Shown here one piece after another: positions 8,456-59,276 of a stretch of 64,000 nt of DNA. Made by a program: the position numbers and the translations under genes. Each line of letters opens with the position of its first letter. Position 1 is the stretch's first letter. Below the pieces are notes generated by a model. It did not search any database. It saw only the letters and a program-made list of their open reading frames with translations, and was not told the origin of the DNA. Source of the DNA: Erpobdella octoculata (Eukaryota > Annelida > Clitellata > Hirudinida > Erpobdellidae); the NCBI GenBank assembly GCA_963978895.1, contig OZ022238.1, positions 9,221,855-9,285,854 of the forward strand, written 5' to 3'.

Positions 8456-8814
8456 ATGAAGAGTTTGATCATGCTGCTCTTTGCTGTCTTTCTGTTTGCA
8501 GGTAGTGACATGTTTTTATATTTTATTTAATTAGTTATACTCATGGTTTCTGTAAAAATATTATAAATATATTAAAACTTTTATAATTATCGACAGCCAT
8601 TGCTTTTGTCGACGTTGAGGCAGTGGACACAGGTAAGTACAACTGTGCAGACAGAAACCCTTGCACGGACCCCATGACAGGTACCCAGTACTTTTTCAGC
8701 AACGACGATCTTACAAAGTTTGTTCAGTGCAGCCAGTGGGGCCAATGCTACGTTATGAGTTGCCGACCAGGACTGGTCTTCAACGTTTTCGCAAGTGTTT
8801 GCGTTCGTCCATAA
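8456..8814 (+). CDS. Secreted single-domain CBM14-type chitin-binding peptide (copy 1)
   Basis: Two coding exons, 8456-8501 and 8597-8814, are joined in phase 1 and give 87 residues. A likely 5'-UTR intron spans 8346-8439. Exon 1 encodes a hydrophobic signal peptide starting MKSLIMLLFAV. The mature part has six cysteines (YNC, NPC, VQC, GQC, MSC, VCV) in the order expected of a chitin-binding type 2 (peritrophin-A) domain, with aromatic-rich QYFF and the PGLVFN motif before the last cysteine. The family binds chitin outside the cell, in matrix, gut lining or defence. A roughly 1.1-kb block including promoter, introns and 3' flank is shared with the gene at 32,083. AATAAA lies at about 8958. 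Domain assignment is strong; biological role is inferred. Confidence 0.87.
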
Positions 8815-9369
8815 AAATAACTTTTAACATTTGCCATAAGTAAATGAATTAAATGCTGTTCAGATTTTGTTTTGTTGAAACAGTTTAATATAAAGTTAGC
8901 TTCTAATTCAAGAATGAAAAACAAAAAGGTTGTGTCTTTTTTTTATTGTATGTAGTAAATAAAACAAAACTTTAAGCTTTTATTTCTTTCAACACACGAT
9001 TGAATCATCCCTCATAAAACAAAGTTTTGTTTTAAACGACGTTACGCGATGAAACTCTTGTTATGTTCGCTAAGCATTTTTGGAAAACTTAACTAAGAAA
9101 TTGTGAGTTTGTGGCGTTCATTCATGCTATAAGAATAATTGAAATTATCTTAAGAGCAAACATCACTATTTGTGACAATTCTTTTTAGTTTTCAAAGCGG
9201 TTTAAAAACAGTTTTATACAGTAAATTTATCGAAGAAAGCCTTTGAGGTTTTGATTGACTTCTAGTCTTCAAGACCACGCTTTCTTTATCAGGAGACTTT
9301 GAAGTCGTTTTTAAAGTTTTATTAAAACTGAACCAACAACTAAAATAAACAATTATGTAAGAGCCGACA

Positions 9370-56700: not shown

Positions 56701-59276
56701 GTTCAATCTTCTTTACACGCTTTGGTGTAGAATGCAATTAAAAAATCCGTTGTAAATATGAACATATTCCTGATTGCCAGATTATCATAGCTCATGGAGA
56801 CAGCTAAATGTAGGTGGTAGTTTAAGCAGATTATTAAATAACACAACTGCTTTATTAACTAATACCTGATGATTGCTTTCTCATTTAATCTGCCCATTGT
56901 AACGGTTGCGCTGTAATACTTTGGTTATCAGCCAAATTATATGGTTTGACACACCGGTCTAAAAAAACCAGTCAACAGTTGAGGTATTTGTTAATTCGCA
57001 ACATAAAGAAATCCAAAAACATTTTTATTTTTGTTTCTCCTTTCTTTAATCTTACAAATAATATTTACTGTAAGAACTTGCAGTTAAATTATTTTAACTT
57101 ATTTAAACATAAACAAGTGTCATTTTCAACTTTTTTTGGTTGAACCTTTTGGTGGTTTAAATAATTTTTGAGATATTACTTGAATTATATGTTGTTTTGA
57201 TTTGGTTTAAAAATGTTCCAAAAGTGTTAAATATCTGTGAAATATAAGAACTATTGTGCTAATAAACTTTCTTTAAATATAAGTAAAACTAATTATATCT
57301 TATTCCACTAAATAAATAAGTTAATTTGTACCAATTATTAACTTTATGTTGACGAAAAACCTGTTATGCGTGTTTCATCATGCAAATTTCTTGGGGTGCA
57401 AAAACTGTGGAATACTATCTCGCGTGTGTCGATTTGTGGATATAAACATTTCCTTGATGTTATACTATGCTCCTATTTATCCTTACTTATCTTATTGTAA
57501 TATTGTTTGCGCTTCGAATTATCCTTCCCGTCTAAAAGCTCTTCATGTCTTGCAAAATCGAGTGGTACATATTTTTTTTTAAATTGCCCTTTGTATCATC
57601 TTGTAAATTGAAATTGATTGAAAATAATTTCTGAATATATTTTAAATTAATTCATTCTTGTTGCAATTTTTATGTACAAATATGATTATCATATGTTGCC
57701 GTCATCATTTGATAATTTTTTCTTAAAATCATCTCATGTGCATTTTCATAATGTGCACTCTTTGCATTGCTTTTGATCTGATTTTGCTCAAACAACCCTT
57801 AAAACATTATCCATAAAATGTTCTGGTCCACGATTCTTTTTTAGCATCCCGACATTTATTTCCTCTTTGAAAAGTATTTCATTATTCGAAAATTCGTTAC
57901 AATTTTACTTATTATTACTCGACACATAATTTTAAATTGCATTGTTTCTCGGTTGGCATTCTGGTTTTGTTTTTTTATATTTATATAGGTCGTTCGTTAG
58001 CGGGAAGTAATTCCCTTTGCATGTATTTTTGGGCACTTTATTTCGTTTATTCTTGTATTTTAGTTAGTTAGGTTCGCATTGTGCTCAACAAAAAAAATGG
58101 TCGAGAGGTGAATATACAAAAAATAAATCCTTAGGCTTTAGTGAAAAAAAAAACAACTTTGAAAGCTATGTAACAAATTAAAGTTTTTTTTTTTTAAACG
58201 TCTAATGGGTTCCGGGCCCTTCGAGTCTTCCCTTGGATATGCCGCTGTAATCATTAGCTCAAATCACACAAAAACGTCTATCGTGTTACAAACCATTAAT
58301 AGCATCTCCTCTGTTGAGAACCAAAACACGATCTACATTCAGGATCCACTCCAAATCTACAACCATCCAGCTTGTTCCTAAACTGGCCTCATTCGTCTGT
58401 GCGCACTGCTTGCCTGCACCTGCTGTCGTCAACAACAGACCGTCAACAGCATACCAGGTTCCAAATTTCAAAAAATCATTGTTATACACTGAGCTCATGC
58501 AGGAAAGCTTTTTCAATGCTACGTTGGTGGTGTCTGGAAATTATGGAAATCAAAATATATGCAAGTTTATATCAATATAATATTGTAGTTATTAGAGCAA
58601 AAACACAATCTTTAAGGTTAAGATCGGTTTTGCTAGAATTTTTGAGAAACCAGGTTGACTTACTTGTCATCAAAGATATGTTATCGGGCTTCTGGATCTA
58701 AAAAATGCAATTGCTCTATACGATGAGACAACACGAAACATTGTTTTAATTACATTTTGGTAAGCAGCAATAGTTAACAATGGTGTCAACTAATTAAATA
58801 TTGAAATTAAATAAACCATGGATTACAATGGCAGTATATGACAACAATTTGTCCTCTCTTTATATTTATAATGATAACATTCTTTGTTGAAAATATGTTG
58901 AAATGCAATTTCATGCACTAAAAAATAAACAAACCCTAAAATTTTGGCAGTTCGGAACGTAGGACAACATGAACGGATGTATATCAAACAGCTGACAAAT
59001 ACCAAGATCTTTTCGATAATTGAAGCTGACGCAGGACTTGTTGAAACTGCACAAATGAGCACACTGTACCAATGGAGGAATGCAAACTTGAGGTAACAAA
59101 TTTAAATTGACAGGGAGGATGATTTCTTCACTATTTTCTATAGAAGCACAAGTTGGTTTTCCCATGCAAGTGAAAACTTCAGTAAATCTCTTCAGATAGT
59201 TGTTAAAGTCATCTTCCATTGGCAGTACCAAGAACTGCGTCAGGCACGCGTTCACTACTGTCCAATAGAACAACAT
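50775..59276 (-). CDS. Secreted PAN/Apple + F-type lectin-like protein (gene 3), intron 3 of about 7.3 kb
   Basis: Minus-strand exons 59276-58935, 58697-58664 (34-nt micro-exon), 58533-58294 and 51013-50775 have the same phases as gene 2 and give 284 residues. Signal-like start [21 protein letters not shown] motifs [18 protein letters not shown] and NCQNFR; linker [11 protein letters not shown]; lectin motifs [37 protein letters not shown]. Exon 4 lies 7.3 kb away, but a piece of the paralog's 160-nt intron 3 is preserved at 55,937-56,022 between two blocks of inserted elements, so exons 1-4 very probably belong to one gene. All four exons are open. Whether the enlarged intron is still spliced is unknown; if not, the product would lack the second half of the lectin domain. 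Confidence 0.78.
51110..51170. repeat. (AT)n microsatellite
   Basis: AT tract at the start of the inserted block in intron 3 of lectin gene 3. Confidence 0.9.
51185..51440 (+). mobile_element. Helitron-like fragment
   Basis: Carries the ctacaccattcatccgat block, then cacaaaatgagcggagcggg, then GC-rich minisatellite units. It is interrupted by an (AT)n tract that hosts the LTR element. Confidence 0.6.
51444..51566. repeat. (AT)n microsatellite, insertion site of the LTR element
   Basis: Continues on the other side of the LTR element at 54,500-54,634. Confidence 0.92.
51567..51748 (-). repeat. 3' LTR
   Basis: TGTTATATC to TATAACA, 182 bp, preceded on the minus strand by a polypurine tract. 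Confidence 0.75.
51758..52051 (-). pseudogene. Retroelement C-terminal remnant fused to an acidic repeat
   Basis: Minus-strand frame with [19 protein letters not shown] acidic repeats, then [20 protein letters not shown] and [11 protein letters not shown], resembling the integrase C-terminal tail of Ty3/gypsy elements. It ends next to the polypurine tract. The similarity is from recall. Confidence 0.5.
52385..52532. repeat. (AT)n microsatellites inside the LTR element
   Basis: Two AT tracts, 52,385-52,432 and 52,498-52,532, separated by AT-rich sequence. Confidence 0.9.
52671..53424 (-). pseudogene. Frameshifted acidic repeat region of the LTR element
   Basis: Minus strand. Pieces in different frames read [19 protein letters not shown], then [18 protein letters not shown] (a tandem acidic octad-like repeat), then [20 protein letters not shown]. 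Stops and frame changes separate them, so this is decayed coding sequence continuous with 53,425-54,216. Confidence 0.55.
53425..54216 (-). CDS. Gag-position protein with coiled coil and DEPCKD repeats
   Basis: A 263-codon open frame. Residues 1-45 are globular ([16 protein letters not shown]). Residues 45-75 repeat [15 protein letters not shown], a likely coiled coil. Residues 95-195 are about ten degenerate copies of an acidic hexamer-to-dodecamer ([24 protein letters not shown]). The tail is Asp/Glu-rich. Coding-like sequence continues upstream in another frame to about 54,340 ([20 protein letters not shown]) right after the primer-site region, so the original protein started nearer the LTR. 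Its place just inside the 5' LTR suggests a gag-derived product. Function unknown. The Cys-containing acidic repeat is unusual. Confidence 0.5.
   Translation of the reverse strand: MSELVYRLRTSFENNGFVPEEYEFETENELMKALYKMAEEYRATQEQNRAAQEKNRAAQKENRAAQEENRTAQQEMKTFLELLNGDTNNYGEKDGHDDEPYKVVQGEPCKVVQDEPCKVVQDEPCKDGQDDEPCKDVQDEPCKDVQDEPYKDGHDDAPVEGGRDDEPVKDGHDNEPCKDVQDEPCKDGDDEPGKDGDNDTVGLDVDNKTKKEEKNVENERQNDEDESDDDGYSTGNNSDGFYPYSDGSETEASITDDGTAYSG
54320..54499 (-). repeat. 5' LTR
   Basis: TGTTATATC to TATAGCA, 180 bp, followed on the minus strand by ctggtgaacagaag. Confidence 0.75.
54500..54634. repeat. (AT)n microsatellite
   Basis: Other side of the tract interrupted by the LTR element. Confidence 0.92.
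54636..55384 (+). mobile_element. Helitron-like element with long GC-rich minisatellite
   Basis: Starts tggtaaaaaaattgaaatcg, then cacaaaatgagcggagcggg, then tandem arrays: a unit around ggtaactggagaataagcgg near 54,700-54,860 and a roughly 58-bp unit (gaccgggagcgggaaaggca core) repeated three times at 54,926-55,120. Ends ctcgggcaactccggatact followed by ctgctagt, a degenerate hairpin + CTAGT terminus. Frames of several hundred codons across it are artefacts of the repeat. Confidence 0.7.
55937..56022 (-). other. Relic of the ancestral intron 3 of lectin gene 3
   Basis: tatatattggcttgtttcag, then cagtatcggtgctcatcatt and atgatcat match the paralog's intron at 44,990-45,075. This marks the join between two insertion blocks. 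Confidence 0.8.
56286..56360 (+). repeat. Dispersed A-tailed repeat end
   Basis: cttcctacatacagccatta then tggtgtaaaggtccataaac and an A-run; same family as 1,716-1,797. Confidence 0.5.
57346..57582 (+). mobile_element. LINE reverse transcriptase fragment
   Basis: [20 protein letters not shown] and [16 protein letters not shown] match the thumb-adjacent motif of Jockey-superfamily reverse transcriptases (LYY-IYPYL-YCNIVW, LQ-R-VR). Decayed coding-like sequence may extend to about 57,970. Confidence 0.7.

Follow-up and report, generated by a model that had tools for sequence, protein, structure and literature searches.

How a run of neighbouring secreted lectin genes could keep a common front module while their sugar-binding heads differ is the question raised by a 64,000-nucleotide stretch of the Erpobdella octoculata genome (386 Mb, 94 contigs), here called the window (C1:9,221,855-9,285,854; contig OZ022238.1, forward strand). 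An earlier note on this DNA described a local cluster of five intact spliced genes, each encoding a signal peptide, a shared PAN/Apple-like module and either an F-type or a C-type lectin head, interleaved with CBM14 chitin-binding peptides and dead copies, and likened its modular logic to that of gastropod FREPs. The overall reading put forward here, which we regard as probable though by no means assured, is that of secreted glycan-recognition proteins forming a birth-and-death family, with a PAN exon homogenised by gene conversion.

Five secreted PAN-lectin genes

The gene models were rebuilt from genomic sequence, with signal peptides and the missing membrane anchor judged by eye. The five genes are confirmed at the sequence level: where the earlier note had placed each of them there is a predicted model with open frames over three or four coding exons (Table 1), and all 14 introns begin with GT and end with AG, several donors being otherwise non-consensus. 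Each model is arranged as a signal peptide, then a PAN module, then one lectin domain, F-type in G1, G4 and G5 and C-type in G2 and G3, with no membrane anchor discernible by eye. The F-type domain is split by a mid-domain intron in all three F-type genes, and G4 and G5 carry an extra 34-nt linker exon. Diverged paralogues preserve the reading frames and splice sites, and ratios of nonsynonymous to synonymous divergence (dN/dS) are mostly below 1, which makes the models more than chance; we hold the predicted anatomy of signal peptide, PAN and lectin with high confidence.

Identity of the PAN module

Comparisons were widened to an extended region made up of the window and 100 kb on either side (264 kb; 5 kb of the added DNA reads N). 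The PAN assignment made by the earlier note stands by hidden Markov model for G4 and G5, which score 23.9 and 24.5 bits against Pfam PAN_1 (cut-off 21.4 bits), but not for the other three genes on their own: G3 falls below at 16 bits, G1 has only a sub-threshold match to PAN_2 (14 bits) and G2 has no PAN match in Pfam. The 12 F-type genes of the extended region all carry six invariant cysteines in their PAN exon, and conserved cysteines recur in seven PAN exons of C-type genes; four to six core cysteines define the PAN/apple domain in the available text of PMC9249922. PAN_1 matches 6 of 10 joined PAN-F-type members at E <= 0.1, and paralogous PAN exons elsewhere in the genome, belonging to F-type as well as C-type genes, exceed its cut-off.

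The PAN/apple fold is an antiparallel sheet with a helix packed on it. The strand and helix order predicted by AlphaFold for one PAN exon fits this fold, in the single confident model out of five (predicted local distance difference test, pLDDT, 70.8; the other four, 34-43). A Foldseek search with that model returns, as its first 15 matches, HGF NK1, the apple domain of TgMIC4, SML-2 and plasminogen, which we take to be PAN/apple structures, at weak E-values of 0.37-1.5.

Lectin domains and their sugar sites

Both lectin assignments of the earlier note proved sound when the sequences were compared as families. In the PDB, a profile built from 10 PAN-F-type proteins hits FBP32 (E 1.6e-25) and eel agglutinin (E 2.7e-10), and F5_F8_type_C_2 matches 8 of the 10 joined members at E <= 0.1. 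Five PAN-C-type proteins combined in a profile match mannose-binding protein (1.7e-6) as well as other C-type lectins, and G3 alone also gives a profile match to mannose-binding protein. Pfam Lectin_C has no match in G2 or G3 taken singly; it is found at E <= 0.1 in 2 of the 5 PAN-C-type members and lies above its cut-off in two C6 exons that the G3 search found too and in paralogous exons genome-wide.

The calcium/sugar motif of C-type lectins is EPN or QPD plus WND, EPN signifying mannose and QPD galactose. Among the 12 C-type second exons read, EPN occurs in seven, QPD in three, and KPD and EPD in one each. G2 and G3 have EPN, but LMD and WRD replace WND; in some C6 relatives WND does accompany QPD or EPN. 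In the F-type genes, the fucose-site histidine is present in 10 of the 20 genes with the position covered (12 from the extended region, 6 other G4-type genes and 2 on C4), and in seven of these ten it is followed by Arg-x-Asp. Where the histidine is lacking, the site has Gln (G4 and G5), Asn, Thr, Arg or Met, or is missing (G1 and its near copy G1'). The fucose motif of F-type lectins, given as HX24RXDX4(R/K) in the available source text, does not occur as written in the family, where the spacing is longer (for example, HX28RXD in R139). F-type membership is therefore assigned from the sequence profile, not from the motif, and no fucose binding is claimed for the window genes.

These residues bear on an alternative that we consider improbable, namely that the family is largely non-lectin, with lectin folds used for protein contacts and degenerate sugar sites. 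It would account for the histidine missing in 10 of the 20 genes examined, none of the three F-type genes of the window having it, and for the LMD and WRD of G2 and G3. It is harder to reconcile with the histidine of the other ten, mostly backed by Arg-x-Asp, and with the EPN or QPD kept in 10 of the 12 C-type exons.

Positive selection on the lectin loops was also considered and rejected: no 15-codon window over 55 pairs of 11 F-type genes has dN above dS, dN/dS being below 1 in all windows, so the lectin heads appear constrained, without visible diversifying selection. The sole pairwise dN/dS above 1 (2.27, for lectin exon a of G4 and G5) was not used, as it reflects about one synonymous change.

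Exon mosaicism and probable gene conversion

In many pairs drawn from 11 F-type genes, the leader+PAN exons resemble each other much more closely than the lectin exons do, and the exons do not share one history. Exon trees were built from these 11 G4-like genes out of 13 collected, C38.06 and C38.09 having been dropped because their lectin exon a is partial. The PAN tree places R124 with G4 and G5 (98%), whereas both lectin-exon trees place it with C9.008 (92% and 100%). In approximately unbiased (AU) tests, each exon rejects the trees of the other two (PAN, p = 7e-14 and 4e-4; exon a, 2e-4 and 8e-9; exon b, 2e-4 and 0.041).

Synonymous divergence points the same way: after Bonferroni correction, 23 of 165 tests find it unequal between two exons of one gene pair; between C9.008 and C9.522, for instance, it is 0.10 in the PAN exon and 0.60 in lectin exon a. 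As a control, the two halves of one exon differ in 5 of 165 tests, as against 20 of 165 for between-exon comparisons of the same half size. All five differing half-exon cases concern PAN halves of G4 or G5 compared with C9.x genes, which fits a conversion tract confined to the PAN core. G4 and G5 indeed share 156 identical bases there, while their divergence is 17-19% over whole introns and 300-bp flanks and 11-12% in the 90-140 bp next to exon 1. Among R139, C9.008, C9.522 and C9.531, divergence is 7-10% in the PAN exons and 19-49% in the flanks. The clearest example is an F-type pair on another chromosome, at C4:34.47 Mb, in which the PAN exon differs at 5 of 306 positions (1.6%), against 33/204 (16%) in exon a, 51/177 (29%) upstream and 80/189 (42%) in the intron. 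Its near-identical tract runs from ~12 bp before the ATG to ~40 bp inside the intron.

It is very likely, judging from these comparisons, that the PAN exons are mosaic among the F-type genes. Gene conversion is what we infer from the divergence patterns, the comparisons not being mutually independent. An exon-only (cDNA-type) form of conversion was dropped for G4 and G5, as neither the second lectin exon nor the mini-exon is homogenised and the C4 tract enters the intron. The likeness of the PAN exons might instead result from selection on the PAN protein together with codon use, and it is in the PAN core that the proteins of the 11 genes are best conserved (dN/dS about 0.2-0.3). That explanation is very hard to sustain, since synonymous divergence is itself unequal between exons of a pair, exceeds 1 in the PAN exons of other pairs, and the C4 tract extends into non-coding DNA.

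One PAN module or two

The earlier note had a shared PAN module bearing swapped heads. Sharing holds within the F-type genes, but the PAN modules of F-type and C-type genes are only distantly alike: hhalign aligned them over 67 columns at 89.8% probability (E 1.8e-6) with enlarged sets, and at 48% probability with the first, smaller sets. The intron layout differs as well. In the window, the C-type genes have an intron inside PAN and join the lectin in phase 1, whereas in the F-type genes PAN is not interrupted and its exon joins in phase 0. A recent swap of F-type and C-type heads on one PAN was rejected on both grounds. Some PAN-C-type relatives on C6 have an unsplit PAN exon, which makes the split in G2 and G3 a subgroup trait and leaves room for a remote common origin; by sequence, the two PAN kinds may have one. 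The intron-bearing subgroup is also present outside the window, in C-type relatives L049 (C1:8.16 Mb) and L050 (C3:30.4 Mb), whose PAN is split as in G2 and G3. In place of swapped heads, the finer picture drawn from the sequences is one of exon-level mosaicism and apparent PAN-exon gene conversion among F-type genes.

A larger array and a genome-wide family

The cluster described by the earlier note is present but not merely local. In the extended region, the three main exons are all present in 12 PAN-F-type genes, and there are also three PAN-C-type genes, one decayed C-type gene outside the window (at -14.7 and -8.7 kb), and ten CBM14 domain exons plus one fragment. G1', the near copy of G1, lies ~48.5 kb upstream of it, and the block containing G1 and G2 resembles its upstream copy in pieces mostly 84-97% identical.

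Copy number might in part be an assembly artefact of retained alternative haplotypes, chiefly at this block, where the DNA from ~-44 to -15 kb repeats 4.4-34.7 kb with best pieces 93-97% identical. We consider this quite unlikely: the two blocks stand in tandem in one contig, each with insertions that the other does not share, and the other pairs examined differ by at least 17% in whole introns and 300-bp flanks.

Across the genome, the merged G4 and G1 searches gave at least 107 distinct F-type second-exon matches, a lower bound, as 137 of 469 and 131 of 333 candidates, respectively, were scored; these are matches, not proven genes, and may include broken copies. Among them, C4:3.37-3.94 Mb accounts for 41 and C1:8.95-9.61 Mb for 17. 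The G4 search also gave 55 PAN-type matches, of which 33 have an F-type first exon within 6 kb downstream, and 12 have the second exon too. The G3 search gave at least 154 matches (149 of 346 candidates scored), C6 holding most among those listed, and at least 27 of the 40 PAN_1 exons checked (out of 82) have a C-type exon within 3 kb downstream. By these sequence comparisons, the window is a slice of a larger array, probably one of birth-and-death type, and part of a multi-chromosome family in tandem arrays. A separate run of Lectin_C matches (G000) lies at C10:25.63-25.95 Mb.

Proposed mechanism and its rivals

In the mechanism that we propose, PAN-lectin copies would be born and lost in tandem arrays while conversion or unequal exchange would copy the leader+PAN exon between genes, so that the lectin heads could diverge behind a common front module. 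The PAN module may assemble or dock to a common partner and the lectin domain would read glycans. With fucose-binding residues kept in some copies and altered in others, the family could form a germline repertoire with several ligand specificities. The least certain step is the last, in which the products would act as soluble, mucosal or surface factors that bind or agglutinate microbes, or bind mucus and cuticle glycans. A role in recognition or defence, as judged from sequence, is a serious possibility rather than an expectation.

Several observations weigh against the family being one of glycan-recognition proteins homogenised at the PAN exon. The PAN assignment of G1 and of G2, each taken alone, is weak, and the structural support for PAN, which comes from prediction, is soft. 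The fucose-site histidine, which some neighbours retain, is absent from the window's F-type genes, G1, G4 and G5, and the lectin heads show no window with dN above dS. On the side of mosaicism, the exon-a tree is rejected by the exon-b alignment in the AU test (0.041) but not in the Shimodaira-Hasegawa test (0.116), the exon-b tree has mostly weak branches, and the 165 synonymous-divergence tests are mutually dependent. The interleaved CBM14 peptides, finally, fit a matrix role as well as defence.

That last point introduces the main rival, which we judge unlikely: the PAN-lectins and CBM14 peptides would be matrix or mucus proteins co-deposited in mucus, tube, gut lining or cuticle, and the expansion would be structural. 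In its favour, the array contains duplicates of CBM14 domain exons as well, three of them inside the G1+G2 block, and the lectin heads are conserved, not diversifying. By contrast, the changes at residues that contact sugar and the occurrence of both EPN and QPD suggest varied ligands, for which a plain structural protein would have less need.

A bolder form of the proposed mechanism, to which we also give rather little weight, treats the leader+PAN exon as a germline constant cassette, re-copied by conversion onto old, distinct F-type heads in at least two unlinked arrays. If true, annelids would have a constant/variable design that uses PAN and lectin exons and is independent of both immunoglobulins and FREPs, and the PAN-C-type genes would form its parallel arm. 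To our knowledge, little is known of innate recognition in annelids, and at least 107 F-type second-exon matches, many of them PAN-fronted, together with the PAN-C-type arm, would constitute a concrete candidate recognition system. The family also offers a testable case of modular evolution, in which one can ask whether conversion keeps a front module constant while the heads diverge. Conversion tracts yield sharp predictions for population sequencing, as do heads with and without the histidine for glycan arrays.

Other features of the window

The CBM14 peptides and dead copies reported by the earlier note as interleaved with the lectin genes are there in part: CBM14 is found at three places, and dead pieces are few, namely a CBM14 scrap and an F-type scrap, besides a few shorter, weaker matches (Table 1).

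Table 1. Predicted genes, exons and repeats of the window (positions counted from its first letter)
Feature	Position	Strand	Remarks
G1: signal peptide + PAN-like exon 12664-13053; F-type exon a 13307-13565, exon b 13959-14209	12664..14209	+	No fucose-site His
G2: signal peptide + split PAN 22355-22566, 22644-22747; C-type exons 22824-23006, 23240-23508	22355..23508	+	EPN
G3: signal peptide + split PAN 36545-36756, 36848-36951; C-type exons 37041-37223, 38027-38295	36545..38295	+	EPN
G4: signal peptide + PAN exon 46066-45728; 34-nt mini-exon 45509-45476; F-type exon a 45364-45125, exon b 44964-44726	44726..46066	-	Gln at His site
G5: signal peptide + PAN exon 59276-58935; mini-exon 58697-58664; F-type exon a 58533-58294, exon b 51013-50775	50775..59276	-	Gln at His site
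Last intron of G5, 7.3 kb (160 bp in G4)	51014..58293	-	Microsatellites and low-complexity open frames inside
PAN-core stretch in exon 1 of G4, 156 bp (52 codons)	45752..45907	-	Identical to G5 58959-59114
PAN-core stretch of G5, partner of the above	58959..59114	-	Matches G4 45752-45907
CBM14 chitin-binding peptide gene: leader exon 8456-8501, domain exon 8597-8814	8456..8814	+	Leader and domain start read by eye
CBM14 domain exon	26465..26694	-	PF01607 23.7 bits (cut-off 22.1); leader exon not identified
CBM14 domain exon	32231..32416	+	Paralogous to that at 8.6 kb
CBM14 fragment	29119..29178	-	Dead copy
F-type lectin exon-a fragment, short	63601..63655	-	Dead copy
Duplicated block with G1, G2 and three CBM14 domain exons	4406..34654		Second copy at ~-44 to -15.2 kb, gapped

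Two reverse transcriptase open frames lie between the lectin genes, at 2271-4019 (+) and 27431-28480 (+), matching PF00078 at 103 and 74 bits, and are probably from non-LTR elements. A DDE transposase fragment at 48360-48635 (+) scores 20.1 bits against PF03184, slightly under the cut-off of 22. The ATG-started open frame at 15521-15907 (+), of 128 amino acids, has no Pfam match at E <= 0.01. A long microsatellite at 61032-61617 gives open frames in several phases on both strands, and internally repeated low-complexity open frames lie at 53425-55404, within the last intron of G5.

Elsewhere in the assembly, C94 (L052; 19,123 bp) is a mitochondrial contig with the order nad3-nad2-cox1-cox2-cox3, nad2 being assigned through a Pfam family shared with other subunits. 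Table 5 code was read by eye from AGA/AGG at conserved serines and ATA at methionines, and an atp8-like frame between cox2 and cox3, where part of the contig has no assignment, was likewise seen by eye and not confirmed by Pfam. The order presumably matches that of annelids. Mitochondrial gene order is conserved in Pleistoannelida, according to the available text of PMC12403961.

Comparison with known systems

None of the kinds involved is new in itself, whether F-type lectins, C-type lectins, PAN domains or expanded invertebrate lectin families. With F-type lectins such as FBP32 and eel agglutinin, the family shares its C-terminal F-type domain, by profile, and in half of the genes examined the site histidine; it differs in having a single such domain behind PAN and in its longer motif spacing. 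The domains that frequently co-occur with eukaryotic F-type lectins include C-type, pentraxin, CCP, transmembrane and FA58C in the available part of PMC5712786, which does not name PAN among them. The literature searched, with most subscription journals outside it, gave no description of a PAN and F-type lectin fusion, and a homologue search of a protein database returned no PAN-lectin relative, with P0001 as its one hit, the database being taken as animal-poor and the result therefore not as evidence of absence. In bivalves, C-type lectins form large repertoires that are lineage-specific and include additional domains (PMC10140915, available text, where 'pan' appears once, in a pan-genome reference). 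The expansion is alike, and the PAN front module is what sets the present family apart.

PAN/apple proteins such as HGF, plasminogen, TgMIC4 and SML-2 resemble the family in cysteine pattern, in Pfam PAN_1 and, more tentatively, in predicted strand and helix order. The family differs from them by a single PAN placed ahead of a lectin domain.

Gastropod FREPs, CREPs and GREPs are expanded families with an immune role; FREP-like receptors are marked by immunoglobulin plus fibrinogen domains, by induction on exposure to parasites or microbes and by somatic diversification. As far as the available text of PMC8878817 goes, they are two-part invertebrate proteins with a common front and a recognition head, like the proteins described here. 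The comparison drawn by the earlier note, one of like logic with different parts, holds for logic only: none of the five window proteins has an immunoglobulin or fibrinogen domain in Pfam.

The closest case of F-type recombination found in the literature searched is oyster bindin, described in the available part of PMC5712786 as a diversified F-type lectin whose mid-domain intron recombines; diversification, a mid-domain intron and apparent recombination mark the present family as well. A gamete-recognition role like that of this protein, which is expressed in the sperm acrosome, would suit the mid-domain intron and the exon-level mosaicism. It is nonetheless a distant prospect, given the many loci on several chromosomes, the presence of PAN on C-type relatives too and the positive selection that is not seen. 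Tandem F-type repeats are also absent, each of the 12 F-type genes in the extended region having a single F-type domain, which counts only weakly against the likeness, as single-domain bindin is within the published range. Oyster bindin comprises few genes with one to five F-type repeats, whereas the family of E. octoculata comprises many one-domain PAN genes in which the leader+PAN exon appears to be homogenised.

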